Assembly (NCBI RefSeq): GCF_010015585.1
Contig: NW_022985071.1
Span: forward strand, 124,001 to 188,000
Reading direction: 5' to 3'
DNA length: 64,000 nucleotides
Origin: Eremomyces bilateralis CBS 781.70
Taxonomy: Eukaryota; Ascomycota; Dothideomycetes; Eremomycetales; Eremomycetaceae
Part shown: piece after piece, positions 1,831 to 58,128 of the stretch
Numbering within the stretch: position 1 is the stretch's first letter
Layout: every line of letters begins with the position of its first letter
Position numbers and translations under genes: made by a program
Notes under the pieces: generated by a model
Told to the model about the DNA's origin: nothing
The model's database searches: none
What the model saw: only the letters and a program-made list of their open reading frames with translations

Positions 1831-2601
1831 TGGGATTAGCGCATGCCGCCTGAATGTGTGTGAGAGAGAGAGAAAGAAAAGGGAGGAGACTATTCCGCAT
1901 CACGATCCTTGGATTCCCAGAAGGCGGTGCGCTCATTCATGCGAACGGATGAGGCAGCGCAAGGAGTAAGAGGTGTCGATGGAAATGATGGTTGACGCTA
2001 GGTGCGAGGGATTTGGGGAAGAGAATCATTCAGTGGATGATAGCTGTCGACTTTCGAGTAGGTCTTAGCGCTTGCTCTTATAACGGATCCAGAAGTCGCG
2101 TGTTCGTTCATGCGGTGGATCTGCTAGGCCGCATATTCATACGAAAGGAGGGAAGAGGCTCGCCCGCTACTTCGGCTGCCGGTTCCATCCCTAACCGCGT
2201 CCACGCCACAGCCCCTGGGCAGCGTGGATAGGTAGTTCTGGGCTGTTCTGGATGGCGAGCAGCGCACCGGAGGCAGGTCAAGGAATAAGCGAGGCCAGGG
2301 AGGGAAAAGAGAAAGCGCAATGAAAGCAAATCGATTGATCCGGATACTGGGACTCTGTGATTGTCTATTTCCCTTAGGTTGGAGATTGGCGTACATAGGG
2401 TGTTTCCCTTCCATCATTTCGTCGTATCAGAACATCTTTCATGTAAAGAAATCAGCAAATTGAATTTCAGATCTACTCCCAATGTCGTTTAAAAAGCGTG
2501 AAAGATCAACTGAGATTGAGCACCGTAGATCAGAGGCTGCTACGGCCCGCCCCCCAGAGCTTGCTTCGCTTCACCGGATGCCAGTAGTCGGAAGCGATTC
2601 A
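1831..2601. other. Intergenic, no gene seen
   Basis: Follows the gypsy remnant. It contains a short GA-rich run (about 1858-1890) and overlapping short frames on both strands without recognisable domains. It may be the worn continuation of the same retroelement. Confidence 0.4.
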
Positions 2602-3571
2602 TCAACGTGACGGGGGCGCGAGATTTACCGGCTCTTGGATCTGGAATTCTTTAGTGACCTTAACCCACTCCTCGCCATACTCCTTTACGAGACGCAGCAG
2701 TAGGGAATCTTCCGCAGAAGTGAGGGCTACACGAAGGTTCCTCCGTTTTTGCTCTAGCTCTGGTATGAAATTCAAATCGAAGTCGTCGTCGCTAATGTCC
2801 TCTAGTGTGGAGAACTGACGTTCCCTCGCCACCGGTGAAGCGGCCGATACCGTAGCCAACGCTTCCACGCGGTCAAAGATATCCCGAACCATATCCATGA
2901 GGGCCTCCTGGTTCCCCGATATCTCGGACTGCGTCTGAGCGTTGCTGCGGATCGCTTCCAGCAGCTCCGGTAGGCTCTGAACCAGGGTTTGGTCTTGCGA
3001 AGCATGTGCATGGAGACTGTGGCCGTCCTTCAGTGGGGAATCCGGTGGGGCAGTGATCCTAGGTTCTAGCTCCAGCGAGGGCGAAGCGGGTAGCGAAGGT
3101 GACGGAAGACGGTCGACCAAAGTCAAGGGAGGCGGCGTAGCTTTCTGTTCGACGTATCCGGTTAGCTGAATAGAAAAAAAATGGCGACTCTATCCCCTTA
3201 CCCAGGTGATCAGGGGAGACGCCGGCGTTGGCGACTGCGCCGGAAGACGCCTATGGAAAGACATCTCCAGGCCAGAATACTGTACGACGATATGGTCTCT
3301 AGGTGCGAGGCGGAGTTCCTTGCGAATAAATTCCTCGACTCCGTGCGGATCTGGACAGTAGATGCGGAGGATGTTGCGCCATCGTCTAGCTCTGACACGT
3401 AGACCGTCACATCCTCTTCCTTGTTTGGAAAGCGAGTATTGAGAAGGTCCTGGACCTGTTGCGTGAAAGCTACTTTGACCCTTATACCCGCTTTGCCGGT
3501 CTCTTGACAGATGGATGTGTGACTCGGCGCCAGCCCCTACGTCCTCGCCCCTTCGTCGGCGGGTTATGGTT
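2602..3571 (-). CDS. Hypothetical protein, unrecognised family (copy A, start unresolved)
   Basis: The minus strand carries two open exons joined by a good fungal intron: exon from about 3571 to 3202, intron 3201-3145 (GTAAGG, branch GCTAAC, end ACAG, 57 bp), exon 3144-2602 with stop. Both exons join in phase 0. The first exon encodes a segment with ILRIYCPDPHGVEEF and RDHIVVQYSGLEMSF. The second is Ser/Pro-rich, then a helical, acidic stretch of about 180 residues. A diverged copy of the first exon near 56.8 kb keeps the DHIVV and SGLEMSF blocks in the same frame, which argues that this is real coding sequence. No ATG is visible in the first open frame, so the start exon is missing or the gene is decayed. 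I do not recognise the family. Confidence 0.45.
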
Positions 3572-4035
3572 GATCAGAGGGAATCGAGTGGCCGCCGTTT
3601 CCCCTAAGTGACGACCGCTTCTCAATGGATTCACCGATACGAAAGAGTACCTTGTATCCTGCGTTCATGCGTTCATGGAAGAAGCTCCACCGTCGGTCGA
3701 TGTCCCCTGTGATTGTGGATAGCCAGTCGGCGGGCCACGGCTGTTTAAGTAGAGAGAGAAACGAGTGGCCGTCGGTCCTCGATCGGCGATAGCATGAATG
3801 ACTGACATATTGAGGGAGCCGGAAGCCGTATCTCGGTTCATGCGTTCATGCAGGGTGGAGCGAAACCTGTTTGGGTTTTTGTTGGGACGAGGGGAGATTG
3901 GAAGGATCCGAATTCATGGTGTGGTAGTCGGTGGACGGGCGGGAGGTTTCGATGGATGATGGTTATCGTGAAAGATTTCGGGGATGGATGGGTTACGAAC
4001 AGACGGCGCTATACCTGGTCGGGCGGCGCTAAACT
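3184..4035 (-). repeat. Dispersed repeat, copy A (gene 5' part plus upstream region)
   Basis: This stretch resembles 56693-57560 throughout its length in the same orientation and order. Shared landmarks are the exon around 3202-3410, a GGCTGGCGC-type block near 3540, a GTAGAGAGAGAAAC-type block near 3751, and GTGGACGGGCGGGAGGTTT at about 3931 followed by GGCGCTATACC. The two copies are clearly diverged. The gene and the sequence upstream of it were therefore duplicated as one unit. Confidence 0.6.
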
Positions 4036-4170
4036 CAAGGAGGGAATTAACCAAAACTTCACGTACAAAGTTAAATATTTACAATAAGCTAGGACAGGTA
4101 TTGTCGCACGTGATGTGCTAAAATGGTTGGGAGTGAGGTGCTGTTGTTCCAGCAGCGAAGTTGTTGTATT

Positions 4171-4218
4171 GTGTGTTGTGTGTAAGTTGTGTGTAAGTTG
4201 TGTGTAAGTTGTGTGTTC
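4171..4218. repeat. Minisatellite, about 11-bp unit TGTGTGTAAGT
   Basis: Three near-perfect tandem units of a GTGTGTAAGTT-type 11-mer, flanked by further GTGTG. It lies in non-coding DNA between the copy A repeat and the mariner element. Confidence 0.85.
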
Positions 4219-4360
4219 TAGCTGAATGCCTGGTTCCCCGGCCCTACAGATATACGAGAGTCACGGCAAGATTATTAATGCAGTTTGTAGCCTTGGACTC
4301 CTAGAGCTCATGCCTTGGCCTGCGACAGGTATTCCCCGGATTTCACGTTTACTATGGTTA

Positions 4361-4778
4361 CAGGCAAAAGTATTGTTAGCGCGGCGCTAATTAGGGGTCT
4401 AGCCTAAACCGTTTTGTTCATTCTTCCATTACTAATTAGATATAGATTTCACCATCTATTAGCCTGCTCATTCTCCGGACCCCAATCCTATTGAGACAGT
4501 ATGGAATTGGATGAAGGGCTGGATCCAGGACCACTATGGGGATGCCTGATTATATTATGACCAGCTTCAGGAGGGAATTAACGATGCTTGGGAGGCTATC
4601 AGAGGAATTCGTGTAAGAGTTGTCGAGTTGATGGGCCAGAGATGCCAGGATGTGATAGGCGCAAATGGAGGCTATACACGATAATGAAATCTATATCCAA
4701 TTAGTAATGGAAAAAAGAACAAAAACGGTTTAGGTTGGAAACTCCTGCTTAGCGCCGCGCTAACAATACTTTTGCCTA
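4361..4778 (+). mobile_element. Internally deleted Tc1/mariner-type DNA transposon
   Basis: The element begins CAGGCAAAAGTATTGTTAGC and ends with its inverted complement, with terminal inverted repeats of about 28 bp and a TA dinucleotide on each side (4359-4360 and 4779-4780). Inside, the plus strand encodes only the C-terminal end of a DDE_3-class transposase: PAHSPDPNPIETVWNWMKGW, the region around the last catalytic acidic residue, then about 50 more residues interrupted by one TGA stop. Everything before that motif is missing, so the 418-bp copy is non-autonomous. A further inverted repeat (GTTTACTATGG at 4347, CCATAGTAAAC at 4787) lies just outside the TIRs. Confidence 0.85.
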
Positions 4779-23222: not shown

Positions 23223-24722
23223 ATGACTGAGGACCAGTGTACCGCGGTCAGCAAGGACGGCGGAGAGCCCGGTACTCCATCGTTCGACAACCTCTCTGGC
23301 TCCGCGGCACAGACAGTCTCAGAATTCCTCGAGTCCCAGGAGCCGCAGCCTGTGGAACGGGTGCTAGTGGATAGGCTAGCATGCCAGCTCCCCATCCCCA
23401 AGTTCGAGAACCCGGGGCTATCCCACCTGGCCCGGGTCGCCCAGGGGCAGGCGGGGGAGATTCTCAAGGAGGAGTATCTCCACAAGTTCAAGTACATCAA
23501 GAACTCCGAGATGGCGATGGCGGAGCTCGGGAAGCTTAGGTGGAAGCCCAAGCAGGGGCAGAATGTACCTCTAGACGAGTCCGCGATCTTGCCCTACGTG
23601 GACATCATCCTCCGGGCGCTCCGGGTCCACTTCTCGTCCAGGGACCCCCGATACATCGAGCATCTGGTCGAAACCACGGCATGGCTCGTTGTGATCTATG
23701 CCAGAAGCCTCCATCTGGAGGGATCTCGAGTTCCGCCGCTCAGCGACAAGTCGATCAACACCTTCGAAGACAAGCACCTGGACTTCGATACCAGAGTCCT
23801 AAAAGTCGAAGATCTCCTTGTTCGCTATCGAGGCTGTGCAGAGTGGGTGATGACGTGGGTCTCCATCCCAACCATTGTCAACGGGCCGTACGCATGGGAG
23901 AACTACATGCTCGAAAAGAAGACGACCACGGTGGAGAAGGATGGAACGTCCGAAGATCTGAAGGATGCCGTGCGACGACTCCAGATCGAAAACCAAGAGC
24001 TCCGAGCTTCACTTGCAGTGGTTTCACAGAACCGCGACCCAACCACCGAATTCCAAGAGTTGAAGGCTTTCATCAAGCGCGTCGACGAACGTACACGAGA
24101 TACAATCAGCCAAGCCAACATGGCCTCTGCGACCATGAAGGCATTGTTCACAAAGGAGGGTAAAGATATTGCGACAGCGTTGAACATCGCTAAGCAGGAG
24201 ACACGCCCCCATATCAATGAAGAGCCACAAGCCAAAGGCAAAGGGAAAGATAAAGTGGGGGTAGTCCCAAGCGTCATCGTCGCCGAAACAGGTTTTTCAA
24301 GCATCCTGGCAGATCCTGGGTCCACTGTCATTGAAGCTGAGAGCGTTGCTACCGAAATGGCTCCCAGCGAAGTTGTTCCAGCCGAAGTCCTTCAAACCGA
24401 GATCCCTCAGATCATCCTCTCTCGACCCAATCTTCTTGTCCCTGAAATCGACCCCACCCAGCTCAGGACAGCCGATTTCGAGCCTTCTGATGACGATTCC
24501 GTCGATAGTTCCCCTGAAATTGCGAGCCAAGATGGCTCTGATGCTGGTTCTCAAGCTCCTAACGACGCCGCTACTAAAATTGCCACCGATGCTGGTGCTC
24601 GGACGGTCACTGAAGACGCATTCGACAATCATGGCCAGGCGTTCACTCAAGCTGCCTCCGGTTCTGATACTCGATCAACTGCTGAAGCTGCCACCGAGGC
24701 TGCCATCGAAACTCACGCCTAA
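23223..24722 (+). CDS. Hypothetical protein with coiled coil and repetitive acidic tail
   Basis: A single coding exon, 499 aa from the chosen start. I do not recognise it. The N-terminal 260 residues look globular (LPYVDIILRALRVHF, LVETTAWLVVIYARSLHLEG, AEWVMTWVSIPTIV). A predicted coiled coil follows (SEDLKDAVRRLQIENQELRA to about residue 330). A Lys/Gly-rich linker (AKGKGKDKVG) leads to a low-complexity tail rich in Ala, Thr, Glu, Asp and Ser with loosely repeated AATEAAxE- and SDAGSQ-type units. No signal peptide or membrane segment is seen. Codon use is like that of a normal expressed gene. It is flanked by large gene-free regions and resembles a lineage-restricted fungal gene. Confidence 0.7.
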   Translation: MTEDQCTAVSKDGGEPGTPSFDNLSGSAAQTVSEFLESQEPQPVERVLVDRLACQLPIPKFENPGLSHLARVAQGQAGEILKEEYLHKFKYIKNSEMAMAELGKLRWKPKQGQNVPLDESAILPYVDIILRALRVHFSSRDPRYIEHLVETTAWLVVIYARSLHLEGSRVPPLSDKSINTFEDKHLDFDTRVLKVEDLLVRYRGCAEWVMTWVSIPTIVNGPYAWENYMLEKKTTTVEKDGTSEDLKDAVRRLQIENQELRASLAVVSQNRDPTTEFQELKAFIKRVDERTRDTISQANMASATMKALFTKEGKDIATALNIAKQETRPHINEEPQAKGKGKDKVGVVPSVIVAETGFSSILADPGSTVIEAESVATEMAPSEVVPAEVLQTEIPQIILSRPNLLVPEIDPTQLRTADFEPSDDDSVDSSPEIASQDGSDAGSQAPNDAATKIATDAGARTVTEDAFDNHGQAFTQAASGSDTRSTAEAATEAAIETHA

Positions 24723-32223: not shown

Positions 32224-33424
32224 TTAGAGGATCGCGTGAGCGCTACAGTAACTCACGCTACTATCCCTCACGTCCACGCAATCACTACTCCTCTCATACC
32301 TCACGAACTTAAACCTCCCACCTTCGTCAGCCTCGGAGCTCGGATTTGCGGTCCAGAGCTGCTCGATCGCCGCCATCATCACACCGATAGGATGCCTTCC
32401 ACAGACTGTATTTCCCGTCTCGTGTAGGACGGACAGGAATTCGTCATGCTCCCCTGACTCCACTGCGTCCATGCACATCTGGTCAACCAGCGCGATGCTC
32501 TCGTGGATTCTGGGGTTGGATGGTCGCTTGCCCGCTGAGCGGAGATTGTGAGCGGTGCCATCGGGAGTGCGGTAGTATGTGTATCGGAATCGCTGACCCC
32601 AGTGGCAGAAGTCTGAGGAGATGATGAACACGTTGGACGGGTCGGATAAGTAAGGTGCAAGCAACGCCCCGTACTGTTTCTCGGTCGCGGGTTCAGTAGA
32701 TCCGACGAGAATAGGGACTAGCTTTGGAAAGGCAGATGGGCTCGAAAATGCTCTAAATCGTTTGGCCGAGAGTTAGCACAGAATAGGGAACGAGATCGAG
32801 TTCAGAAGGACTGACCGGGAGCACATCTTGTAGATGTACGGTAGATGCATTTCCAAGCTATGCTCTGCTTCGTCGGTGTCAATAGACATCCTATCGAAAT
32901 GTCCGGACTTATCAAGCTCCGCAACCGTCGCTAGGTCGATCTGAAGGTCTCCAAGGGGGGTTTCATAGGCTCCGCATCGTGATAGCGCGCATCGCGAGAG
33001 GTAATAGTGATGCGAAGGACCAAGCAGAAAGATCCGCTTCCTGTTGCCGGTCAGTGGCGATCTCTCATGATATTGACATCGAAGATACTCACGCATTGGA
33101 GAGATCCAAAGCCTTATACGCCCATGCCGCTGCAGGTCCTGAATAGGCGTATCCAGCATGCCTGCAGAAGTCATGGTAAGCCCTCCATCCGCTCATTCTC
33201 TGGCAAACCAGCCGAGTTGCAGGGCCCTACGGTGCGATAATTGCTCTTGCTCCCGACGAAGGGATGGACACCGGAGCTCCTTTGGAAGACTCCGTCCCGA
33301 TCGGGGTGGTTGAGGCGGGCACAGCGTCGAGGAATCGGTCAAGTTGAGCGGACAGTCCTGGCCCGCTGCTGTCGTACCATGACCCCGCATGTGAAGCGAT
33401 CCTAGATGGCTTTGGGGGACTCAT
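32224..33424 (-). CDS. MEMO1 family protein (Mho1-like)
   Basis: Four exons on the minus strand: 33424-33231, 33161-33093, 33040-32816 and 32752-32224, with introns of 69, 52 and 63 bp; the frame closes to 338 aa. ATG 33424 gives [17 protein letters not shown], the family N-terminus with its conserved His. Then follow [69 protein letters not shown] and a final [10 protein letters not shown]. These carry the conserved His/Cys residues of the MEMO fold, related to metal-dependent dioxygenases, where copper/redox activity has been described. In fungi the physiological role (S. cerevisiae MHO1) is unclear. An in-frame ATG further upstream is less likely, since it would add an unusual hydrophobic extension. 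The Crypton-like transposon lies just upstream of its promoter. Confidence 0.93.
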
Positions 33425-34002
33425 CGTGCTAGAGGCATTCGGATGCGAGGATATGGTTGAGATTTTGTAGTAAAGGTGAACGCAGGACGAAAGTTTAGAA
33501 ACAAAGGACAATGGTGTAGTTACGGGATAGAGAAGTACTGGGGCAGCTTTAATCTCGAAGTGTGATATCACCAAGATCATGACCCCACCATCCCGAAATC
33601 GTGGGGGAGTCGGGGTAATCCCTGTGAGTTAGTTGACAGGTGGTGACGGATATGTAACCAGTTATCAAGGGTCAGCGCCACGGGTTATGGCGCGCCAAGG
33701 CCGCCTGATAACCCAGCCTCTCGCGCCAGCGACCGCAGCGCTGCCCCCTTGATATACCACTTATCTGAAGGCCTTCGCGGTGGCTGGGTTATTGGCGAAG
33801 ACATGGCGCAGCGTTAAGCCCTTTGCAGTAAAGCGTCGGTGGAAACGATCGCTATATACGGTATAGCTGTGACTTGGTGGCGCTTAGCTCAGGCATTTCT
33901 TCCCCCTCCCCTCCTTTCGCGATAGAACGAGCCATTCGCGATCATACAGATGAATAGTTTACTCGAATTATCCCCTACCTACCGCCATTAGACCGTGAAG
34001 AA

Positions 34003-36334
34003 ATGCCTCCTAGCTCGCAGCTCTCTATAGAGCATGCGATCGAGCTGAACAGCCGTTTAAATGCCGCGACACAACGAGCCCTTGCAACGCCAGATGGCAG
34101 AGTAACGAGTACGAGGAGAATATATGAGCCACGACAGCAAGAGTTTATTGTGAGAAGCGCTTTCGTACGGGAAATCCAACGAAGGAGGAGGCTAATTCGG
34201 TTAGGCGTGGTGCCAGAAGAACCAGTGCAGCGACGGTATACTCGTTACCAGTGCCAAGATTACCCTCTTTCTAGAAGAAGAGGTTATCGGTCGCATCGCA
34301 AAGCCGACCCGGCCAGGCCGGAGGCTGAAGCAGCCTTGTACGGACACGGATGGCAATCCGATCGTGCAAACGCTCGGAGCTCGATCGATTGAAACGTACG
34401 TTTCTGCGATTATGGAGCTGTGGAAAGTGCAGCACAGCCTTGCTCAGAACCAAAATGTCCCCGTCCGGTCGTACGCGTTGAAGCAGCTGCTGCAAAAGCG
34501 TAAGATGGCCGAGGCGGCCCGCAAGCGAGAAGAGTACGTTGATCGCGGTGCTGGCACACTGCTCGACGGCTATTCGGAAGAAGAGTTCGTACGATGTATA
34601 CGAGGCTGCTGGCAGCCCGAGGCGTCTGAAACGTCCGTCCTGGCAGGCCAGAAAAGAAAGCGAGAGAGACCGACATCGCAGGCCTACAGCGGATGGCTTC
34701 GTACGGCAGTCGATCTCCTCTTCTCGCATAACATGTTTCTGCGTGGGGAGACTGTACGAAACGGAGAACTGCCTGATCTCTTCGCCGTCCCGCTGCAGAA
34801 TGAAGGAGCAACAGATTGCCGTGTTCTCTGTATGATTGTAGACAACGGGAAGACAAACGCCTTTGGAAAGCTAGAGTACGGTGTTACCGTACGACACAAG
34901 GAGCATTGGAAATGTCTAGTCTCTCAGTTGGCGTTCTACCTCTTCTTCCGCTGGGACCTTGAGAGAGAACCGCCGCCGACCTTCAAGCAGCGCTCGGATT
35001 GGTATCGTACGAAGATTTTGAAAGGTGGCCAGAATACCCATCCTCTCTCGTACGCTACTCAGCTGCAGTGGGTCAATGGGATCTTTGACCGCTGTGAGGT
35101 CTCGTCATACAAGAAGACGCATGCCGGACGAAAGCAAGGTGCTCAGCATGCGGAGATGCTTGGTGTCAGCGAATCTCAGATTCAGAGAGCGGGACGATGG
35201 AATTCGGATTCCATGTCGAATGCATACCTCAGCCATATTCCCCGAAAGTTCGTACGAGCAGCCGCTGGCTTCCCTCCCAGCGGCCGAGGAGACTACTTCA
35301 TTCCGCGAGCACAGATCCTGCCTCCTGAGACGCTCGTACGGAAGATCTGGCCATGGGTGGACGAGTGGATCGAACGGTTCCAACAGAATGAGAACACGGT
35401 GCGTGATGATCACCAGTTAGACGAACAGGATGAGGGAGATCGGAATGACCTTGCTGGAAAGGCCTTCCTCCGGCTACTTGATTATCTTCGTACGGTGCTT
35501 CTTCAGGACTCCGTCCTAATCCGCGATGAGTTTCCACGCCACCCTCTCTTCCAGCATCCGATCTTCTCTGATCCGGAGTACCTTGACTTTATGCGGAGGA
35601 TGAGGCAAACTCTTGCTGCTGAAGTGGTTCCACCGCAAGATGTACTCGTACGACAAGCTGTTCCGATAATTGCAGATCGATTGAGTGTGATGGAGACCAA
35701 TCTTGGACAGAGATTACAAGAGATGTTCGACTCTCTTCGTACGGAGCAAGGCCGTCAGCGTACGGTTCTAGATGGTGTATTCAGTGGCAGAACACCTATT
35801 TACCTTAATGTGGGACACTCATCCTTACTCCAGGATCCATTTCCAGCGGTTCGGACGGCCGCTCCCGGCACGAGAATACCTTCAACGCCGGTAATAGAAA
35901 CTCCGGTTTCTATCGCACGCTCCACTCCGACTACCTCTTCGGCTCCGCCGCTATTGGCTATTAGCCCTTCTACCGTACGACCGCTACCTGATCGACCGAT
36001 AAAAGAGAATGGAGAGCCAATCTATACTATGTCTCGTACGGTAGAAACTGTTGGTCAACTCTGGCGAGAGTGGTTTGAAGGATTTGCACCTAATCCTTCC
36101 GTACAAGCGTTAGAGTTAAGGTATGGCGCCTTATGGCGACAGAAAGATTCAGAGAAGACGTGGTATAGTCGTAGAAAAGCTATTATTGATTATATCCGTG
36201 TAGTATCTGAGGCGAAGAGAATACCAGCTCTGCTTGCGGTAACACGGTTGGAAGAGGTACGTACGAGATCAAAGTGGAGTCTACATCATCTCTACAAGGA
36301 GATTGCTCAAAAAAAGAGTAATCTACTTGGATAA
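34003..36334 (+). CDS. Crypton tyrosine recombinase with GCR1-type C-terminal domain
   Basis: Two exons, 34003-34149 and 34205-36334. The 55-bp intron (GTGAGA ... branch GCTAAT ... GTTAG) restores a continuous frame: RRIYEPRQQEFI joins AWCQKNQCSDG and then ITLFLEEEVIGRI. Product 758 aa. The N-terminal SAM-like/core-binding part has the typical YEPRQQEF and ARSIETYVSAIMELW blocks. The catalytic domain resembles the Ndc10_II/Crypton YR fold with Arg255 (TDCRVLC), His355 and Arg358 (KTHAGRK) and Tyr390 (SNAYLSHIPRK), i.e. the R..HxxR..Y set. A Ser/Thr/Pro-rich linker leads to a GCR1_C-like DNA-binding domain at about 650-725 (VGQLWREWFEGF, TWYSRRKAIIDYI). The protein would cut and rejoin element ends through a phosphotyrosine. 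No stops or frame breaks are seen. CGTACG occurs 16 times in exon 2 in all three codon phases. Confidence 0.9.
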
Positions 36335-36377
36335 GCTCTAAGATTGATAGAGGAGGTGCTTGTACGATAATAAATTA

Positions 36378-36676
36378 ATTTGGAATCAAGCAGGAGGAAG
36401 TAAAATGAGGAGGATCAAGAGGATCAAGAAGAGAAGGAAGGGGAGGAGGAGGAGGAAGAGGAGGAGGAGAAGGAAGAGGAGAAGGAGAAGGAAGAGGAGA
36501 AGGAGAAGGAAGAGGAGAAGGAGAAGAAGGAGGAGGAGGAGGAGGAGGAGGAGGAGAAGGAGGAGGAGAAGAAGAAGAAGAAGAAGGAGAAAGACGAGAA
36601 GCCTCGTACGAAGCGCAAAGTTAGAAAGATTCAACTTTCAGGCCCTGTAGAGCGAGCGAAAAGGCGTCGGAATTAA
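36378..36676 (+). CDS. Possible Lys/Glu-rich protein or downstream exon of the Crypton
   Basis: Downstream of the recombinase, a purine tract (about 36400-36600, GAG/GAA/AAG/GGA units) is open in the frame that reads EEDQEDQEEKEGEEEE..., then K/E repeats. It ends DEKPRTKRKVRKIQLSGPVERAKRRRN and a TAA at 36676. The non-repetitive basic tail looks like a nuclear-localisation sequence and contains a CGTACG. There is no ATG in this frame, so it would need a spliced start or may be an alternative last exon of the recombinase gene. It could also be simple-sequence DNA. The other frames give poly-Arg, or poly-Leu/Ser on the minus strand, and look artefactual. Confidence 0.3.
36424..36600 (+). repeat. 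GGA/GAA purine microsatellite
   Basis: Nearly uninterrupted purine run built of AGGAGG, AGGAGA and AAGAAG units with a recurrent 18-bp AGGAGAAGGAGAAGGAAG-type period. Confidence 0.9.
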
Positions 36677-36905
36677 ACAAAGGAGTTTTTAGACGTATCA
36701 TTATATTCCAATTATAGCGGATATCGTACGAAACTTTCATTAATTAGCATATACCTATAAAAGATCTGTTTAGTTTCACCGTACGGTTACTTGTCTTGAA
36801 CTCCACGTAGAGGAACAGATTCTGTCTAAGTACTATCAACAGCCCTGATAGCTAGGATGCTGCCAGTGCTAACATAGAAAGAGACCTTACGAAATTGAAC
36901 TTACA

Positions 36906-36947
36906 TTAATCACCTAGAAGGGTTTCACTTGAATCCGACCGTACGGA

Positions 36948-36978
<31 letters not shown>

Positions 36979-37295
36979 GCATCCTCGTCGTTATTCTCCT
37001 CTTCAGACGATTCTTCGTCCGAAGAATTATCCCAAGAGCAGCGCGTACCGTGGTCACGCCACTTACAATTACCGCAGCAATCACTAAAGTGAGCGATCGC
37101 ACGGCGGCACTCGGGGAAGGGCGTCAGGCCGCGTCGTACGCATTCAGTGCAAGCTGTCGGCGCCGCTGTCCCCCGGGATTGGATAAGGATGGCGTTGATG
37201 TATGACGGGCGGTGGCTTAAGATCTGCCCAGCCGATATCCGGTTGCGTACGAACCGGACGTGGACGCCGGGACCGGTAGCAAGAAGCTCCCGAGG
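36906..37295 (-). CDS. Cys-rich, poly-Asp-tailed protein carried by the Crypton (last exon; start unresolved)
   Basis: On the minus strand 37295-36906 is an open exon of 129 codons plus stop, preceded by a good acceptor (CACTCCCCCTAG). It encodes VHVRFVRNRISAGQILSHRP, then a Cys-rich block CTECVRRGLTPFPEC ... CCGNCKWRDHGTRCSW, then a Ser/Glu/Asp tail with a run of about ten Asp residues, ending ETLLGD. The six closely spaced Cys plus His suggest a small zinc-binding, possibly DNA- or protein-binding module; I recall similar CxNCKWRDH-type blocks in uncharacterised fungal proteins. A plausible upstream exon lies at about 37455-37341 (LRTGINLPRALVLF), joined by an intron of about 45 bp starting GTTAGG. 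No ATG was identified. The gene itself contains several CGTACG copies. It is oriented towards the recombinase gene (tail to tail). Confidence 0.5.
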
Positions 37296-37299
37296 CTAG

Positions 37300-38206
37300 G
37301 GGGAGTGGCAGAGAGCTACAAAGATGGGGTTACCCCTAACCTGCAGCGTACCAATTCCCGGAGTAGGAGGACCTACCGCCGCACCGTAGGTACTATTAAA
37401 CAAAACAAGAGCCCTAGGAAGATTAATACCCGTACGGAGTGGAAATAGATCAAATGCTTACATCTTCGAACGTTGGAGAGCACTGAAGGAAGAAAGAGAG
37501 AGAGAAAGAAAGGAGGAATCGAGTAGGATAGAAGCATAGACTTATAACGACACCTTCCTTAGTCAAATGAATCACTCCTTCCTTACGAATTCCTATTTTA
37601 GAAAGGGAAATTTCCACCTACGTACGAATTTCTATCTCAGAAGGCCCATCCTATTGTACTGTACCTTGGGTAGTCGGGATTTCAATATGACAAGGTTGAC
37701 TTTAGTTACTTGATACTTATAAGTCGATATGACTAACAGCTTACCGTACCTACTGTTGTTGTTATTGCTGTTGTTGTTGGTTAGTATAGGCAATGAGAGT
37801 ACCATTTCCGCGATGGTTGTTATGTGTGAAGAACTAGGGTCTTGGCATTTTTGCCTAATAACCCAGGCCATGACGCGCCAAAATTCCCCTTATGATATGT
37901 CCCAGTTAATGGATGCACACGCTCTGTGATACTTCGCATTGCGTTGTAATTCGGTTTTATTATCGTACGGTAAGCACCAGACTTTGTCTCAAATAGATCG
38001 AGGTAGAAGATGTGGCTAAACGGTGTGTATGAGGGAGCAATTATTATATCAGATGGCTAAATCAGCTACCACGAACAATGGAGGTCAAGCAACGCAAACA
38101 TAAACGCCACATCGCTTGACATGGAACCTGTCTCAACGAGCCCCATTCCAACCCAATTCAAACATCCACCGGGTATAATCATAATCAGTTATGTCTAAAA
38201 CGGGTA
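37300..38206. other. Right part of the Crypton and 3' flank of the helicase
   Basis: Holds the presumed 5' exons and promoter of the Cys-rich gene, a GA-rich run (about 37491-37515), a short GTTGTT repeat (about 37755-37780), three exact CGTACG copies and the probable right end of the element. No other gene is seen before the helicase stop at 38207. Confidence 0.5.
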
Positions 38207-41167
38207 TCATCTAGTCCTCGAAGGGGCGGAAAACGGCTGATTCACCCTCGACGACCAGCCTTGCACCGGTCTCCGCGTGCCCAACGTCCGCCTCTGCCCG
38301 TAACTCCCCATTCCATTGACCTGATCCATCGTGGTGGTGTGGAATGTCGCCGGTAAGATGTTGGTTTCTTCCGCTGTCTCGTCTTCATTCACGATGTCCT
38401 CCTCAGCCCGCTCGCATTTGGTGGGCGAGCTGCTCAGGAGAACATGGCCCTTTTCTCTCCCGGTGTCGTCATGCTCGATAGTCGTCGGACGGCCTGGTAT
38501 GCGAGATCGTTGGATCTTCCAATTTGGAGGTGCGGTAATACCAAGGTTGACCCTTTTCCTCGGTGGACTCTCGTTCATTTGGACTTGGGGTGGAGGAAAC
38601 CGTCCGCGCTCCTCCTTATATGAAGTCTGCGTCTGCACTGTCAACTCTCCCTTTCCCTCTTCTTCCTTCGCGGACTTTGCGCTGAAGAAGGCTTTGAGGG
38701 TGCCCTGAGTTTTTCCTTTGGCGAACGGTGCGGTTCGTTTCTGTGCGTTGGTATTGGTTTCCTGGTCCATCTTCGACCCGGATACTTTCGAAGCCGCCAC
38801 CACGCTTTCTTCTAGTTGCTTCATCTTTGTACCTGCGGAGATAAAGCTGAGCGGTAAAGTAGTTGAGGACATGGAGAATGCACCAGTATTGGTAGCGGTG
38901 ACGTCCACCACCACTCCGCTTGCGGGCTGGCTCTCTTCCATTCGTGACCGTTTGAACTGTCTTGCTCCTGGTAGGTTCGAGGCAACTTCCCACGACATCG
39001 CTTGGTAGCCGAGCCGGGATCCATCTAGAGGGTACAGGTCGTCCTCGATACGTTCAAGCGCTAAAGCACCGTCGATAACCGTTCGGTCTGAGGGACAGTC
39101 TCGTCGCAAGATCCGCGCAAGATCTTCGATGATGGCCATGGAAATGGACGGACCTTGCTGAAGACAATAGGGCTCCAGTTCTGGGACGGCGAGAAATGGG
39201 GAAACCGCATGCTCCGAATCGCTTTCCCTCGAGCTGTTCAGCGGACAGCTGAGATATAGCAGCGACTGGGCTCTTGTCATCCCGACATAAAGCAACCGCC
39301 GCTCCTCATCGGTGTCGTCCGCACGAGAATGGGGGATGGACCCGTCATAGACCCCGGCGATGAACACCACTGGCCATTCCAAGCCCTTGGCTCCATGCAG
39401 TGTTGAAATTGTGACTTGCTTCGTCGCCTCCCCATCCGCGTCTTTCAACTCAGCGTTGGAAGATAAGGCGACGTTCGACAAAAATTGGGCCAATGTCTCT
39501 TCGAGTGGAGAGGGGCCCGTTTCCATCTGTTCCAGAAGATCCTCATCAGGGAACTCGAGGCCTAATGCGTCAATCGCCGATATTTCTGTCGCTTGGGCAA
39601 GAAGTTCTTCAACGTTCGCCCATCTCGCCTCGAAATCCTCCCCCTCATCCTTTCCGGCTCCTCGCTTCTGTAGGAAACTTCGGAACTCGATCTTGTCAAT
39701 AATAGTCCCAATTAGGTTGACAAGTGAGAAGATTTCATCGCTTTCCCGTTTGATCTTACTCTGGCAAGTCAAGATGATGTTCACGAAGGATTGCATCCCT
39801 TTCAGAGCGGATGCGGATACCTTCGTTCGAACATTTCCTCTGCACTGTGCAATGGCAAAAACAAGGCTCCACAATGACACTTTCTTGTTTTCCGCCTCTT
39901 CCAACAACTCTCTAAGCGTTGCTTCGCCTATCTTTCTCGGCGGTTCGTTGATAACCCGGGCAAGCGCGTCGTTGTGATTTGGCTGGTTGATGACTCGTAA
40001 ATAATCCAGCAATACCCGGACCTCTTTACGGTCGAAAAAACGAAATCCTCCCACCATTCGGTATGGAATGCCCGCTTTCCCCAGTGCCGTCTCAATCTTC
40101 AATGAGAGGGCCGATGATCTGAGGAGGATGGCAAAGTCATCATGATGGAAAAGTGATCCTGCCAGCGTTTTGATCCGTTTAATTTCCGTTACGATCCACG
40201 CAGCTTCATCTGTCGCTGATGGGAGTTTTCGAAGAACAGGCCGCTGTCCAAGACAATGGGTCGCTGTAAGCGGCTTTTTGATCCGGTTTGCATCCTGCTG
40301 GATCACCTTGCTGGCACAACGGAGGATGGCCGCAGACGACCGATAATTCTGCTCCAGATGGATCGACAACGTATCTTTAAGGTCTTTCGTCATTCGGTTC
40401 AAGTTCTCAATCTCAGCGGAGCGGAAGCTGTATATGCTTTGATCCGGGTCGCCGACAATGGTAATTCGCTGTCGATGTTGGGCAAAGAGCATCATGAGCT
40501 CGTATTGGACAATGTTGGTGTCTTGGAACTCATCGATCAAGACCGCTTCGACGTTGGCTACGCACTCGGGGTGGTTGTGCAGCAGCTCCACGCATCGGAG
40601 GAGGATGTCATCGTAGTCAAGCAGGTTGGATGATGCCAAAGTGGCTTCATACTCCTCATAAATTCTCGCAAAATCCTGCTCTTCAATTTTTTTCGATCCA
40701 TGGAACTCTGCCGGACGCTTCTTCTTTGCCTTCGCTCTCGATATCCGGGAGGCGATCTTGCCTGCTTCCAAGGGGGATCGCAAACGCTTGTGGATACGTT
40801 TAACGATGGCTTTTGTGTCGGAAGAATCTGCAATGCCGAATCCCTTCTTGATCCCTATCAAATGCCCATAGGAAACCAGAAACCGCCTGCCAATAGAATG
40901 GAATGTTCCCAGCTGAAGTTTCTTCTCCAGCTCTTCACCAACGATACCCCGAATCCGCTCCTTCATCTCCCGGGCCGCTTTGACAGTAAACGTGCAAACA
41001 ATGATATTCCACGGCTTGTATCCTTGCTTGGAGATCAGGTATGCGACTCGAGCAGTTAGTGTTTTCGTCTTGCCGGAACCGGGAGGTGCCAGGACCTGGA
41101 GGGTGGGATGTGGGCTCGTGACGGCACATTTTTGCTGGTCATTGAGGTTTTGGAGTAGATCGTCCAT
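38207..41167 (-). CDS. srs2: Srs2-like UvrD/Rep family ATP-dependent DNA helicase
   Basis: A single exon, 986 aa, starting MDDLLQNLNDQQKCAVTSP (Q motif region). SF1A helicase motifs follow in order: APPGSGKTKTLTAR (I), GTFHSIGRR (Ib), LIDEFQDTN (II, DEFQ), IVGDPDQSIYSFRSA (III), LEQNYRS (IV), STLHGAKGLEWPVVFIAG (V) and DEERRLLYVGMTRA (VI). It unwinds DNA 3' to 5' and, by family knowledge, strips Rad51 filaments and limits recombination at forks. The C-terminal third is unstructured. It contains QGTLKAFF at residues 821-828, a match to the PCNA-binding PIP box QxxLxxFF. The promoter is shared with the divergent FKBP gene (about 520 bp). Confidence 0.93.
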   Translation of the reverse strand: MDDLLQNLNDQQKCAVTSPHPTLQVLAPPGSGKTKTLTARVAYLISKQGYKPWNIIVCTFTVKAAREMKERIRGIVGEELEKKLQLGTFHSIGRRFLVSYGHLIGIKKGFGIADSSDTKAIVKRIHKRLRSPLEAGKIASRISRAKAKKKRPAEFHGSKKIEEQDFARIYEEYEATLASSNLLDYDDILLRCVELLHNHPECVANVEAVLIDEFQDTNIVQYELMMLFAQHRQRITIVGDPDQSIYSFRSAEIENLNRMTKDLKDTLSIHLEQNYRSSAAILRCASKVIQQDANRIKKPLTATHCLGQRPVLRKLPSATDEAAWIVTEIKRIKTLAGSLFHHDDFAILLRSSALSLKIETALGKAGIPYRMVGGFRFFDRKEVRVLLDYLRVINQPNHNDALARVINEPPRKIGEATLRELLEEAENKKVSLWSLVFAIAQCRGNVRTKVSASALKGMQSFVNIILTCQSKIKRESDEIFSLVNLIGTIIDKIEFRSFLQKRGAGKDEGEDFEARWANVEELLAQATEISAIDALGLEFPDEDLLEQMETGPSPLEETLAQFLSNVALSSNAELKDADGEATKQVTISTLHGAKGLEWPVVFIAGVYDGSIPHSRADDTDEERRLLYVGMTRAQSLLYLSCPLNSSRESDSEHAVSPFLAVPELEPYCLQQGPSISMAIIEDLARILRRDCPSDRTVIDGALALERIEDDLYPLDGSRLGYQAMSWEVASNLPGARQFKRSRMEESQPASGVVVDVTATNTGAFSMSSTTLPLSFISAGTKMKQLEESVVAASKVSGSKMDQETNTNAQKRTAPFAKGKTQGTLKAFFSAKSAKEEEGKGELTVQTQTSYKEERGRFPPPQVQMNESPPRKRVNLGITAPPNWKIQRSRIPGRPTTIEHDDTGREKGHVLLSSSPTKCERAEEDIVNEDETAEETNILPATFHTTTMDQVNGMGSYGQRRTLGTRRPVQGWSSRVNQPFSAPSRTR

Positions 41168-47914: not shown

Positions 47915-50900
47915 TCAAGAAACCCACCCCGATCGCCCAGCGTCGAGGGATGATATCCTCCCGACAACCCCTGTACCATGAGGTGGTGGTGACCGCTTCT
48001 CGCGATAGGCGAGGGGGATGTGGTGGGGGTCGTGGGAGAGGCCTAGGGTGGAACGGAGGGGAGGAGAGGGTGGGTGAGAGGGTGGGGCGGGGAAGTGGGA
48101 GAGGGAGGGGGCCATTGGAGGAGGCGGAGGGTGGGAGTGAGTGTAGGATAATGGAGCGGAGGAGGAGTATTGCGGAAGGGGATGTTGCATTGGGGGAGGA
48201 GTGTGCCCTTGTTGAGGGGCGCTGTTGTATTGGGAGGGTGGCATTGCGTATTGCTGCCGCGGAGGTTGCTGAGAGGGGTAAGGATGGGCGGGTTGCATGT
48301 TGCGCTGCGCCGACGATTGCGACTGGTGGTGTTGGTAGGCGGCATATGGATGGCTGAAGTTGTAGCTCGGATTTGGTGGCGGTGCGCCTGGCATCGCCGA
48401 GTGTGGATGTTGGGGATGCATGGTATGCGCTTGAGGAGATCCGATCTCTTGCGAAGACAGCGCTGTGGTCGCTCCTGAAGGCGGAATTCCGCTTGGGTCT
48501 CGATACGTCATGGTTGGGCTCAGTGCTGTTCCCACTGCTGGAGATGTTGGGAACGTATATCCCCCACTCGTTATGTTCCTCTGGCTTGCTTGCATAGCCA
48601 CCTGGACACTCGGGCTTAAACAGGCTGAAGTAGCAGTTGGACTACTCATCTTCGCGCTCCGCTGGATGCTTCGTCCGTCTAGCTCACTGATCTGGTCGCC
48701 CTCCTCGGACAGCTCGTAGCCGAATACACCATGCAAGCCTCGTTTGTCGGCGTAAACATGTGCTTGGCCAGAATTACCAGCGCTGTCATCTACCCACAAG
48801 AGGCGACGTGTCCAGCACCAGCTGCGGGTCTGGATGGCTTCAATGGCGCGGAACGGATGAGATTCATTTCTTCTGGGTGTCGCGGAATCCCTAGTAGGCG
48901 GCCAGGGCGGGCAGCCAGTGAGGGGCGGGCTGAGGAAGTAGGAGACGCCTTGGGTATATCGTAGTGGTGAGACATCGACGGAGATGGTGGACAGGACTTG
49001 CAAGATGCCGTATAGAAGAAGCCAACGGCCGAGACGAGCTTCGCCTGGAGGAAGGTTTCCGTTCTGAGGCGACTTTTCGAACGATGACAGAGAGTCAAGC
49101 AAGGTGTTTTCTATACAAGCAGTCAGCTTGAAGCGCTTATACCTCCATATTCAAATATGTTACCTTCAAAAGTCGTTCCCAACCTGTTGATATTGGTCGC
49201 TCCATTGAACGCCAAACTTATCTGGAACTGTTCCTTTGGATCCTTCACCGTTACTGCTTTCCCCTTCTTAAACCCTCCGAACGAACCCAAGAACTTGTTC
49301 TTTGCCCCTTTCTTTTCATTCCCATTCAATCCAGTCTCGCCATGCAGCGAGGCCCGTGACACCGGGAGTAATGGGAGTGGATGGGGGATATGGAGGTAAT
49401 CTTTGCGTAGGTCCCAGGACACGACCATATCCGTGAATGGGAAGCCGCCAACATCAGCATCGAATGACCCTGACCGTGGCTTTGTTGAAACGATCTGCCA
49501 TTTACGGGACGGGCGCATTTCGTCCGCGTCCCACGCCGCATTGCGATCCACGAGATAGTCATACATGGCGCCGAAATCTTCTTGTAATCGCAGGGCAATG
49601 GTCCTGGACAACCAGCTCGCTCGGCCATCAGGATTGTTTTGCGTGATCCCAGAGTTGCCCCTCGGCCGATTTGCGCTTGATGGGGGAGGAGGCCATTCCC
49701 CATACGTGCGTTGGTAGAACTGCCAGAGAAAGAATTGGAAGTTCCGGAACGCAAGCAGGGCGGGATGGTCTTTCGAGACATGCCCTGCAGATTGGGTTCC
49801 TAGTAAGTTCGTGTACATGTCAGTGAAATCGAAATTTGTGAGCTGTTCTTCGGCACTCAGCACGCGGAGCTGGAGGGAGTTGTATGCATTTACGAGATTG
49901 TGCCGAGTAACAGGCGAGATTTGCTTGAATGCTGCTGAATGGATCGTGTCTTCGGTCATCATACCGACGGTATGTACGAAAGCCTCGACGAATCCTTCTT
50001 CCCATCGGACGGTTTCCTGTTCGCACCATGCCAGTAATCCTAGCGCGGCGTCCAGATTGCCACGAACATCGTCAAGCTTTCGGTCCGCAAGATAGTTCAC
50101 GACCATATCTACCGAGTTCCGCCGCTGGGACGGGTCGTTCAACTCGTAGTAGTTATCCATAACCGTCTGTAGGTCGGACAACATCTGCAAATACTCCTCC
50201 CCCACGATAGGCTTTCCGTACAGCAGGGCGATGAAATTCCTAGTCGCGATATGATGTCTCCGTAAGATTTGCGGAGACGTTTTCAGATGCGCCGGGGCCG
50301 GGAACCATATCTCATGAGTGATTTCGGCTTGTTCATTACTTCGCGCTGCCGTGGATGCAATGTCGCTTGCGGCTGAAGACAGCGGAGGAGTGTACTCGTT
50401 AAAACCGCGGAAATTGCGAGCACTGGGAGTCTGACTGGCCGACGACCGTGTCGTTCGAACAGTCGAGCCGCGTAGTAAGGTCGAACCAGATATTCGCTCC
50501 CCTGCCTGCCAGGGGCTGGATTCTTCTTCCTCGTCCAGAAAGCCGAGATTGGTTTTAGTCAGTGGATAGGAGGGATTTGGTGCTACGATTTGTGGAGCGG
50601 TCGAACTGGATCGGCTAGAGGGTGGCGTTATCTCCTGCTCTTGGTATATCTCGCCATACTTTAACAAGTTGACCAAGAACACCGACTTGGCCTGCTCCAG
50701 TACAGAAACATGGACTCGCAACGTCGGCGCTGCATCCACTTCGGATGTTTCCTCACTGAAGTAGACAAAGCAGTCCCCGCTTGTCATCCACATCTCGGAA
50801 TCATTCTCAAATCCTTTGTATTGCTGGGGTGCACGCCCATTGCCGACCCACAGCTTAATCCCTGACCATGTTATGTTCCGAATCGTCGCGGTTGTCTGAG

Positions 50901-54263: not shown

Positions 54264-56365
54264 TCACATTGAGCGTGGATGGATGATCGGGACCCAGCGC
54301 TTCTTCGTACCCCTGTACCATAGCGCTCGCATGTACTTCAGAGCAAGCTTCGCCATATCCTGACTCCATTCTTGATTCAGAACATGCCTCGTCCACGAGT
54401 GTACACAACTATGCATGCTGTAGCCTCTTGACTCTACTAACTCTTGCGATGACGAGTCCGCCTCTACTAGTCCGTGATTACACAACACTCGAATCGCGTT
54501 ATTAAAGCTCATTTCGTCTTTAGTGAGCTCACGGATCCACTCTGGATCCCCGGAGTCGCTGTGCCGAAGAAGCTCGAACCAGATGTCCTGGTTATTAAAG
54601 TATGCCCACAGCTGAAGAAGCTGGGCCGGAAGTCTGTTCTGTCGTTGAACGTGCTTAAAGGAGGTCTCCCATGTAGAGTATAGCATACGATCCTCATATG
54701 AGCTTAGCTCGGGGCTTGCCTGCTGCAAGTTCAACCATGATTCCTTATATAGACGGAGATAGCGGGCTAAACTGATCGTCACTTGATCGAGGTATGCTCC
54801 AGCTGTGGCTAAGGTGAGAGGAAGTCCATCTAGCTCTTTGATACGCTTCATGGCGTCAGGATCTATTATTCGTATTAAAATCATATTTGCAAGTCTCGTC
54901 TGTCTCACCTTTGTTTAGCCCTTCTCGTCTTGACGCCTTCGACAAGATTTCTAGGCTATCCTGTGCGTTCTCCAGTTTTCGGACTGGTATGCGATAACCG
55001 ACTATGACCCGTGATGACCGTGTGGTAATGATGATCGATCCTTGGTATGATTCGGGGAGGAACTTTCGGATAACTAATGCCTTGATATCTGAATCGCCTG
55101 GCAATTTAGGATTATCGTAGTTATCAAATATTACCAACAATCTCGTACTCTTTGAAAGACTCAGTCACCCCTTAACAGCTTCCACTACTTCGTCAACGCT
55201 CCCTTCCAAATCCACACCGCTTAGACACTTGGCAGAGGGATTTTCTTGTCGTATCCTCCTAGCAGCATTGCCAAAGCTCTGCTTCAAAGAATCTTCATCT
55301 TTAGCGTTGAGCCAGAACACAGCGGAGTAGCTGTCTCGATACCGCTTCGCATAGGCGACCGCGAGCTGCGTTTTGCCGATTCCTTCCAGACCATGAAGAA
55401 CTGCGATGCGACGGCTGCCATCACCACTGAGTACCGTATGTATTTCTATAAACTCCATCTCTCTTGCAACAAAGTGCTCTGTCTCTGAGATATCAGCAAG
55501 ACTAAAGCTAATAGAGGAATCGTTGATCTGATCGCCTATTCTAATCAGTTGTGTCCTAGCTCCTGCATTCATCGGTTGCGATCTGAGAAGATGTATGAGA
55601 CGATGACATACCCTTCGATGCTCTTTCAATCTCCACCCGCAGCCGTCTGAATGCACCCTCTCTCCCTTCTCCATAGATTAAGGGCATATTAATGCCGAAA
55701 ATCCCCCAGTAACGAGTAAACTTTATCTTCCTTTTTCGTAGTCTCGCGATTTTTCGCCCATGACAGTCGCTCTGCCTCTCTGAATTGAATGAGTGCCCCC
55801 CCTCGAAGGGCTCCGACTGGAATTCCGGTGATTTCGCGAATCTGTAGCTCGAGCGATCTCTTGCTTCCCAGCTTCTCACCCTCTTTTGAGAAAAATTCAA
55901 CCGATTCCGGAGCAATCGGCTCTTGAAGTGCCCAACCCCGAGTGAACCATCGACTTTTCCGAAAGGCCGACTTCCAAGTCGAGTGATGCAAGCCGTCCCC
56001 GTCGTTCTTTCCAGCGTTCCGTATCGAAACGTCCGATAGATAGACGTAGCATTTCCCTGCATTATGGTACCACTGAAACATGGAGTTGATAGCTTCGGAG
56101 AGCTCCGTATTATTTCGTTTATCGATACAGCAGGTATCCACCCAGAAGTACTCCAAGCCATCACGAGCTGCCTGTTCTCCACAGAACTCGATCTTCTTAT
56201 AACCCGTCTTATTCTTTCCCGTACTTTCGACGAACTCTTCGAACCTTACTTCCTCACCATCCGTCCATGTATGCGAGAGTATAGCATACTTTTGGGGAAT
56301 CTTCTCGTCACAAAATCTTCCGTCACACAGAGCTCGCCGTTGGGGTTACGCTTCAGGAGACGCAT
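54264..56365 (-). pseudogene. Broken HET / NB-ARC (NLR-type) gene
   Basis: The minus strand begins MRLLKRNPNGELCVTEDF, a typical HET start, and continues with EYFWVDTCCIDK, NSMFQWYHNAGKCYVYLSDV, SRWFTRGWALQE and KVYSLLG, the HET-domain blocks. An NB-ARC NTPase follows (VLHGLEGIGKTQLAVAYAKR, Walker A; TRLLVIFDNYDN, Walker B; IIITTRSSR), then the winged-helix region (LDGLPLTLATAGAYLDQVTI, HSCVHSWTRHVLN). Tetratricopeptide repeats expected after this are not seen. Such proteins are incompatibility/innate-immunity receptors that can trigger cell death in fungi. The frame is broken in a few places, so the copy looks non-functional, but the decay is recent enough that all blocks are readable. Confidence 0.8.
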
Positions 56366-58007: not shown

Positions 58008-58128
58008 TTACTAACTAACTAGTTAACTTAACTTAGTTAGTTAGTTAACTTAACTTAAGTTAGTTAACTTAACTTAGTTAACTAACTTAAGTTAGTTATC
58101 TCTTACCTATCGTTAGTTAGTTAACCAA
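58008..58128. repeat. AT-rich palindromic repeat of AGTTA/TAACT units
   Basis: About 120 bp made almost only of TTAGTTAACT/AACTTAAGTT words. It contains a perfect 15-bp inverted repeat CTTAAGTTAGTTAAC (58054-58068) / GTTAACTAACTTAAG (58077-58091) with an 8-bp spacer, plus nested smaller palindromes. It could extrude as a hairpin or cruciform, and may be a worn transposon end. Confidence 0.85.

Follow-up and report, generated by a model that had tools for sequence, protein, structure and literature searches.

Background

Cryptons are transposons that lack long inverted terminal repeats. In the available parts of PMC3212892, the proteins of the CryptonF group combine a tyrosine recombinase (YR) with a GCR1_C domain, which a figure legend names as a DNA-binding domain; the central part of Cbf2/Ndc10 is described as resembling the CryptonF YR, and most fungal Cryptons have 6-bp terminal direct repeats. 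The subject of this work is an element in 64,000 nucleotides of the fungus Eremomyces bilateralis CBS 781.70 (contig NW_022985071.1, positions 124,001 to 188,000; hereafter the window, in whose coordinates all positions are given). Like CryptonF, it has a YR-related NDC10_II domain, a C-terminal GCR1_C domain, a fungal host and no long inverted repeats at its ends. Two of its features are different, and neither is mentioned in the available text of PMC3212892: the palindrome CGTACG dispersed along the element, and a frame on the opposite strand that matches the DUF3716 family. It is the distribution of this palindrome, and what may maintain it, that is considered here.

In bacteria, DNA uptake words and Chi are short words that run genome-wide through coding and non-coding DNA. 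CGTACG is dispersed through both kinds of DNA in the same way, but within the window it marks a single eukaryotic transposon. Another comparison, drawn in an earlier annotation of this DNA (the original prediction), is with the VANC proteins of plant VANDAL transposons: in Arabidopsis, according to the accessible portions of PMC5735166 and PMC10398659, the VANC21 motifs (YAGTATTAY) are tandem repeats in non-coding regions. Both are transposons that contain a further reading frame, and in both a short motif recurs along the body of the element. The layouts differ: the present motif is a palindrome, shows no tandem arrangement, and occupies most coding positions that permit it, 16 of its 26 sites lying in the recombinase coding sequence. 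The likeness to VANC may be regarded as one of functional logic only.

A dispersed hexamer in the element

Between 34108 and 37970, CGTACG occurs 26 times, whereas the remaining 60 kb of the window contain 8 copies (6.7 vs 0.13 per kb, ∼50-fold), as counted in the original prediction. Outside the element, the word is not overrepresented (8 vs 7.9 expected from a first-order Markov model). When all hexamers in the element are counted, CGTACG stands out with a log10 p of −33.0, while the 210 overlapping windows that serve as controls, once their tandem arrays are masked, reach −6.7 at best; over the lengths scored, 5 to 8 bases, they contain no comparable word. With the arrays unmasked, the next-best window reaches −16.0, and this value is due to a tandem array; the tandem arrays of the element itself are built from units other than CGTACG. 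A Markov model of the element gives 0.8 copies if first-order and 3.4 if second-order (maximum 11 in 500 simulations). Orders 3 and 4 come nearer to the observed count (9.1 and 22.5) because such models absorb the motif itself.

The core extends to YCGTACGR: of the 52 half-sites, 43 have a pyrimidine at the −1 position, and there is little constancy beyond that base. Eleven more sites are one outer base away from CGTACG. Among the matches listed, the literature search found no description of a dispersed hexamer of this kind. No paper containing both Crypton and CGTACG was found in a search whose reach left out most subscription papers, and the papers pairing CGTACG with other terms look unrelated, as judged from titles and the start of abstracts.

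Independence from coding

Could the word be a by-product of the protein sequence? The 16 sites in the recombinase coding sequence fall in all three phases (7 CGT-ACG, 3 xCG-TAC-G and 6 C-GTA-CG), again as originally counted. The predicted enrichment over a codon-preserving shuffle was borne out: 5000 shuffles give a mean of 2.34 copies (standard deviation 1.39, maximum 8), and this null is conservative because its codon pool includes the motif's own codons. The recombinase protein permits CGTACG at 22 places, of which 16 are occupied. In seven long host open reading frames (ORFs), picked by hand and including one partial gene, the corresponding figure is 2 of 57: Iml1 0/18, a helicase 0/8, Lon 1/6, a galactose-oxidase-like ORF 0/9, the ORF at 49123 0/8, a nibrin-like ORF 0/5, and the partial ORF at 18618, presumably Egt-like, 1/3. 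Within the recombinase, occupancy is high throughout, with 3 of 4 places used in the N-terminal part, 7 of 9 in NDC10_II, 4 of 7 in the linker and both in GCR1_C; the sites within conserved domains read as ordinary residues.

The permissive places are themselves in excess. Residue shuffles provide 9.7 ± 2.95 of them, none of 2000 shuffles reaches 22, and the excess persists when shuffling is confined to 15, 30 or 60 residues. By this measure CGTACG ranks first of 64 palindromes (z 4.5, next 1.9). Since permissive places exceed those of the shuffles, residues, and not just synonymous sites, seem to have moved toward CGTACG.

Nor does the word stop at the recombinase gene. As the original prediction had stated, it continues through non-coding DNA and the opposite-strand frame: 7 of the 26 sites lie outside both the recombinase coding sequence and the DUF3716 frame, one of these 7 in the predicted intron, and the DUF3716 frame holds 3, filling 3 of its 4 permissive places.

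Spacing

The 26 sites have a mean gap of 152 bp, and their gaps are more even than under random placement (coefficient of variation 0.55 vs 0.97 ± 0.17, p 0.00055; p 0.00012 with the microsatellite at 36427-36591 collapsed). Strict periodicity is not significant at 9.5-11.5 bp or at 100-250 bp (p ∼0.15 each), the two ranges for which significance was computed; the strongest raw peaks are at 7.0, 38 and 10.2 bp. The earlier description, a mean of about 150 bp with no strict period, is confirmed, and the evenness adds to it. We read this spacing as coverage of the element, not phasing.

The proteins of the element

Joining the two recombinase exons gives a single frame of 758 amino acids. Pfam matches NDC10_II at residues 189-508 (E 8.4e-70), in one uninterrupted stretch, and GCR1_C at residues 656-735 (E 2.9e-22). 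Both domains that characterize CryptonF, a tyrosine-recombinase-related one and a C-terminal GCR1_C, are present; judged by domain content, the assignment to the fungal tyrosine-recombinase transposons of CryptonF type is supported, and with it the Crypton identity originally proposed. By eye, the segments VRHKE, THAGR, QRAGRW and NAYL are candidates for the catalytic R-H-R-Y tetrad. Among solved structures, the only match of the recombinase, to CBF3 subunit A, is weak (E 0.0051). The N-terminal part matches no Pfam family apart from one hit below the cutoff. The predicted structure of the C-terminal part has a mean predicted local distance difference test score (pLDDT) of 48.9, and in this low-confidence model a long helix is predicted ahead of GCR1_C. 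Searches with the recombinase and a piece of it against viral, bacterial and archaeal contigs gave pattern matches, none confirmed as relatives; since the collections searched were those of viruses, bacteria and archaea, this says little about fungi. Downstream of the gene, at 36402-36674, inspection by eye shows a charged frame rich in Glu and Lys that spans the GAGGAG microsatellite, ends in a basic stretch and holds the CGTACG at 36605. It could be an extra recombinase exon.

Pfam lists DUF3716, to which the Cys-rich frame belongs, among its domains of unknown function, and it is not named in any paper found by the literature search, whose reach left out most subscription papers. The frame lacks an ATG and is divided from an open stretch upstream by an in-frame stop at 37296-37298, so that it is either spliced, with an intron that escapes notice, or decayed. 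Its predicted structure, likewise a poor model, has a mean pLDDT of 50.3. The solved-structure search gave nothing convincing (best E 0.079, within the acidic tail), and the search against viral contigs gave pattern matches with no confirmed relative. The open stretches of the minus strand at 37299-37457 and 37635-37889 match no Pfam family.

Readings of the signal

That CGTACG is a site selected at the DNA level is very probable. The conclusion rests on the codon null, the near-saturation of permissive sites, the excess of permissive residues, the even spacing, and the presence of the word in a predicted intron, between genes and in both frames; the dispersed DNA signal proposed in the original prediction is strongly supported. 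What reads this signal? As the sharp palindrome occurs alike in coding sequence, in the predicted intron and between genes, a symmetric DNA-binding protein would be the simplest answer. The full reading, to which we give about even chances, is that of a CryptonF-type element whose body carries Y-CGTACG-R about every 150 bp, under selection as putative protein-binding sites. A symmetric (dimeric), sequence-specific protein would sit on each palindrome, and the whole element would be recognized as a single unit; a role for the whole element is suggested by the way the sites cover its body. It is somewhat favored that the binder is encoded by the element. The first candidate would be the recombinase, binding through GCR1_C and dimerized by the long predicted helix before it; the second would be the Cys-rich DUF3716 protein. 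As for the likeliest benefit, the bound protein might exclude host silencing chromatin along the full element, or it might retain the recombinase on its own DNA. We hold an anti-silencing or chromatin role only tentatively, and a role in self-recognition or action in cis is rather doubtful.

Several observations weigh against these proposals. The evidence comes from one copy, with no relative found in the collections searched. The likely first ∼500 bp of the element, which cover the promoter and exon 1, contain only a near-cognate site, at 34108, and no exact CGTACG, although sites for anti-silencing would most naturally be expected at a promoter. The DUF3716 gene, lacking an ATG, is possibly decayed; both points count against the simplest anti-silencing model. 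If the permissive places of the recombinase coding sequence are taken as given, evenness is marginal (p 0.04); unused permissive places are not significantly near used ones (p 0.22), nor do near-cognate sites significantly fill the large gaps (p 0.17). Finally, the outermost site, at 37964, is ∼100 bp further out than the right subterminal repeat and may not belong to the element.

Other explanations deserve attention. The binder might come from the host: to stay open, the element could have recruited a nucleosome-excluding factor, for example, or a chromatin boundary protein. A mean spacing of 152 bp, close to the length of a nucleosome, corresponds to about one site per nucleosome, and the sites evenly cover the element. 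On the other hand, elsewhere in the window the word occurs at its expected frequency, the 100-250 bp range has no significant period, and the likely promoter region is free of exact sites, so that we consider a host protein unlikely. Another thought is molecular drive: a motif promoting copying, gene conversion or capture would spread with motif-rich copies, with no role for each site in chromatin. The dispersal in all phases over coding and non-coding DNA does recall uptake words and Chi, but we know of no eukaryotic precedent that could be cited for drive of this kind, which counts against it, and its chances appear slim. Even less can be said for codon bias, base composition, CpG protection or chance. 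The element is slightly richer than the rest of the window in CpG (1.10 vs 0.98) and TpA (0.92 vs 0.69); yet neither the Markov models of orders 1 and 2 nor the codon null (2.3) approach the observed counts, and deamination products are a minority of the outer-mismatch forms (4 of 11). This explanation is hardly credible.

Is CGTACG instead the core or target site of the recombinase, accumulated as decoys or insertion scars? The 6-bp terminal direct repeats of most fungal Cryptons, as given in the available parts of PMC3212892, would suit a six-base word, and six bases preserve the frame. Against this, the nearest exact CGTACG before the one at 34164 is at 23887, and no form with one outer mismatch occurs between 33642 and 34107, so that no such word flanks the likely left end. 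In addition, the sites in conserved domains encode ordinary residues, NDC10_II matches its profile unbroken, and the flanks share little beyond one base, all of which makes a target site very improbable. A signal acting in RNA, where a palindrome is identical in sense and antisense transcripts, would agree with the 16 sites in the recombinase coding sequence. It is hard to reconcile, however, with the sites in the predicted intron and between the reading frames, and no Rfam family is matched in 33400-38400; we give it very little weight.

Ends, surroundings and features of the element

The genes in the neighborhood include Iml1, a UvrD-type helicase, which we take to be Srs2-like, and a Memo-like protein; the transposon-like unit has the Memo-like gene on one side and the helicase gene on the other. 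Judged by eye from repeats of AACCCAG type, which lie near 33.7 kb and near 37.86 kb, the element may extend from about 33.65 to 37.9 kb. AACCCAG itself has just three occurrences within 33400-38300, at 33710, 33784 and 37860, and the left subterminal repeats include a 10-bp inverted match to 37857-37866. Repeats of this type occur in both orientations near the likely ends, as candidate recombinase binding sites separate from CGTACG. The bounds originally proposed, 34108-37970, describe roughly the motif span; the element itself probably begins upstream of 34108, given the placement of AACCCAG and the recombinase ATG at 34003. Among exact matches of at least 8 bases, only subterminal repeats were found toward the ends, and there are no long inverted repeats. 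In the 64-kb window no second copy was seen: blastn with 33600-38000 gave 0 hits, and tblastn a single one with E 0.53. The main features are collected in Table 1.

Table 1. Positions of the features of the element (window coordinates)
Feature	Position	Strand	Remark
Left subterminal repeats GCCTGATAACCCAG (33703-33716) and CTGGGTTATT (33784-33793)	33703-33793		direct repeat; candidate recombinase sites
Recombinase exon 1	34003-34149	+	putative; open frame from ATG
Intron, 55 bp (GTGAGA...TTAG)	34150-34204	+	putative; contains the first CGTACG (34164)
Recombinase exon 2	34205-36334	+	contains 16 CGTACG
CGTACG, 26 sites	34164-37969		
CGTACG starts 1-9	34164, 34395, 34470, 34588, 34700, 34888, 35006, 35049, 35251		
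CGTACG starts 10-18	35335, 35489, 35647, 35738, 35759, 35974, 36035, 36260, 36605		
CGTACG starts 19-26	36725, 36780, 36940, 37135, 37246, 37431, 37621, 37964		
GAGGAG-type microsatellite	36427-36591		within the element; about half of the largest inter-motif gap (345 bp)
DUF3716 Cys-rich open frame, 129 codons	36909-37295	−	acidic tail; DUF3716 E 2.7e-15 (Pfam)
Right subterminal repeat GCCTAATAACCCAG	37853-37866		near the right end; putative role as for the left repeats

Over 33650-37970, TpA/ApT is 0.99 (0.89 once the motifs of the element are masked), which is higher than in the host genes measured, and (CpA+TpG)/(ApC+GpT) is 0.94 (1.06 once they are masked), which is lower. Part of this shift is due to the motif itself, with mild repeat-induced point mutation as a perhaps further contribution. 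Elsewhere in the window, GCGCTAA, counted on both strands, occurs seven times in 1836-4757, against 2 in the rest; putative remnants of a frame resembling a long terminal repeat retrotransposon integrase are seen by eye at 1000-1700; 58012-58094 is a tandem array of TAACTTAACTTAGT; and the minus strand at 54264-54908 has a weak match to DUF7779, below the cutoff.

Outlook

It is tempting to say that this element wrote a self-address into its own length, and that a protein it encodes coats its DNA, as a fungal form of self-recognition or anti-silencing that works through coding DNA, unlike the VANC layout; we regard this as possible, at somewhat less than even chances. If it were true, about three quarters of the tolerated places would have been filled, with amino acids apparently shifted to make room. 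Selection that appears strong enough to fill about three quarters of the permissive codons (16/22), and perhaps to alter residues, is in our judgment unusual for a DNA-level signal in a eukaryotic gene. There are also practical rewards: YCGTACGR is a ready probe for a binding protein, and a target-site hypothesis is now available for DUF3716. More broadly, the element offers a case for how a transposon may distinguish its own DNA from that of its host, or resist silencing.

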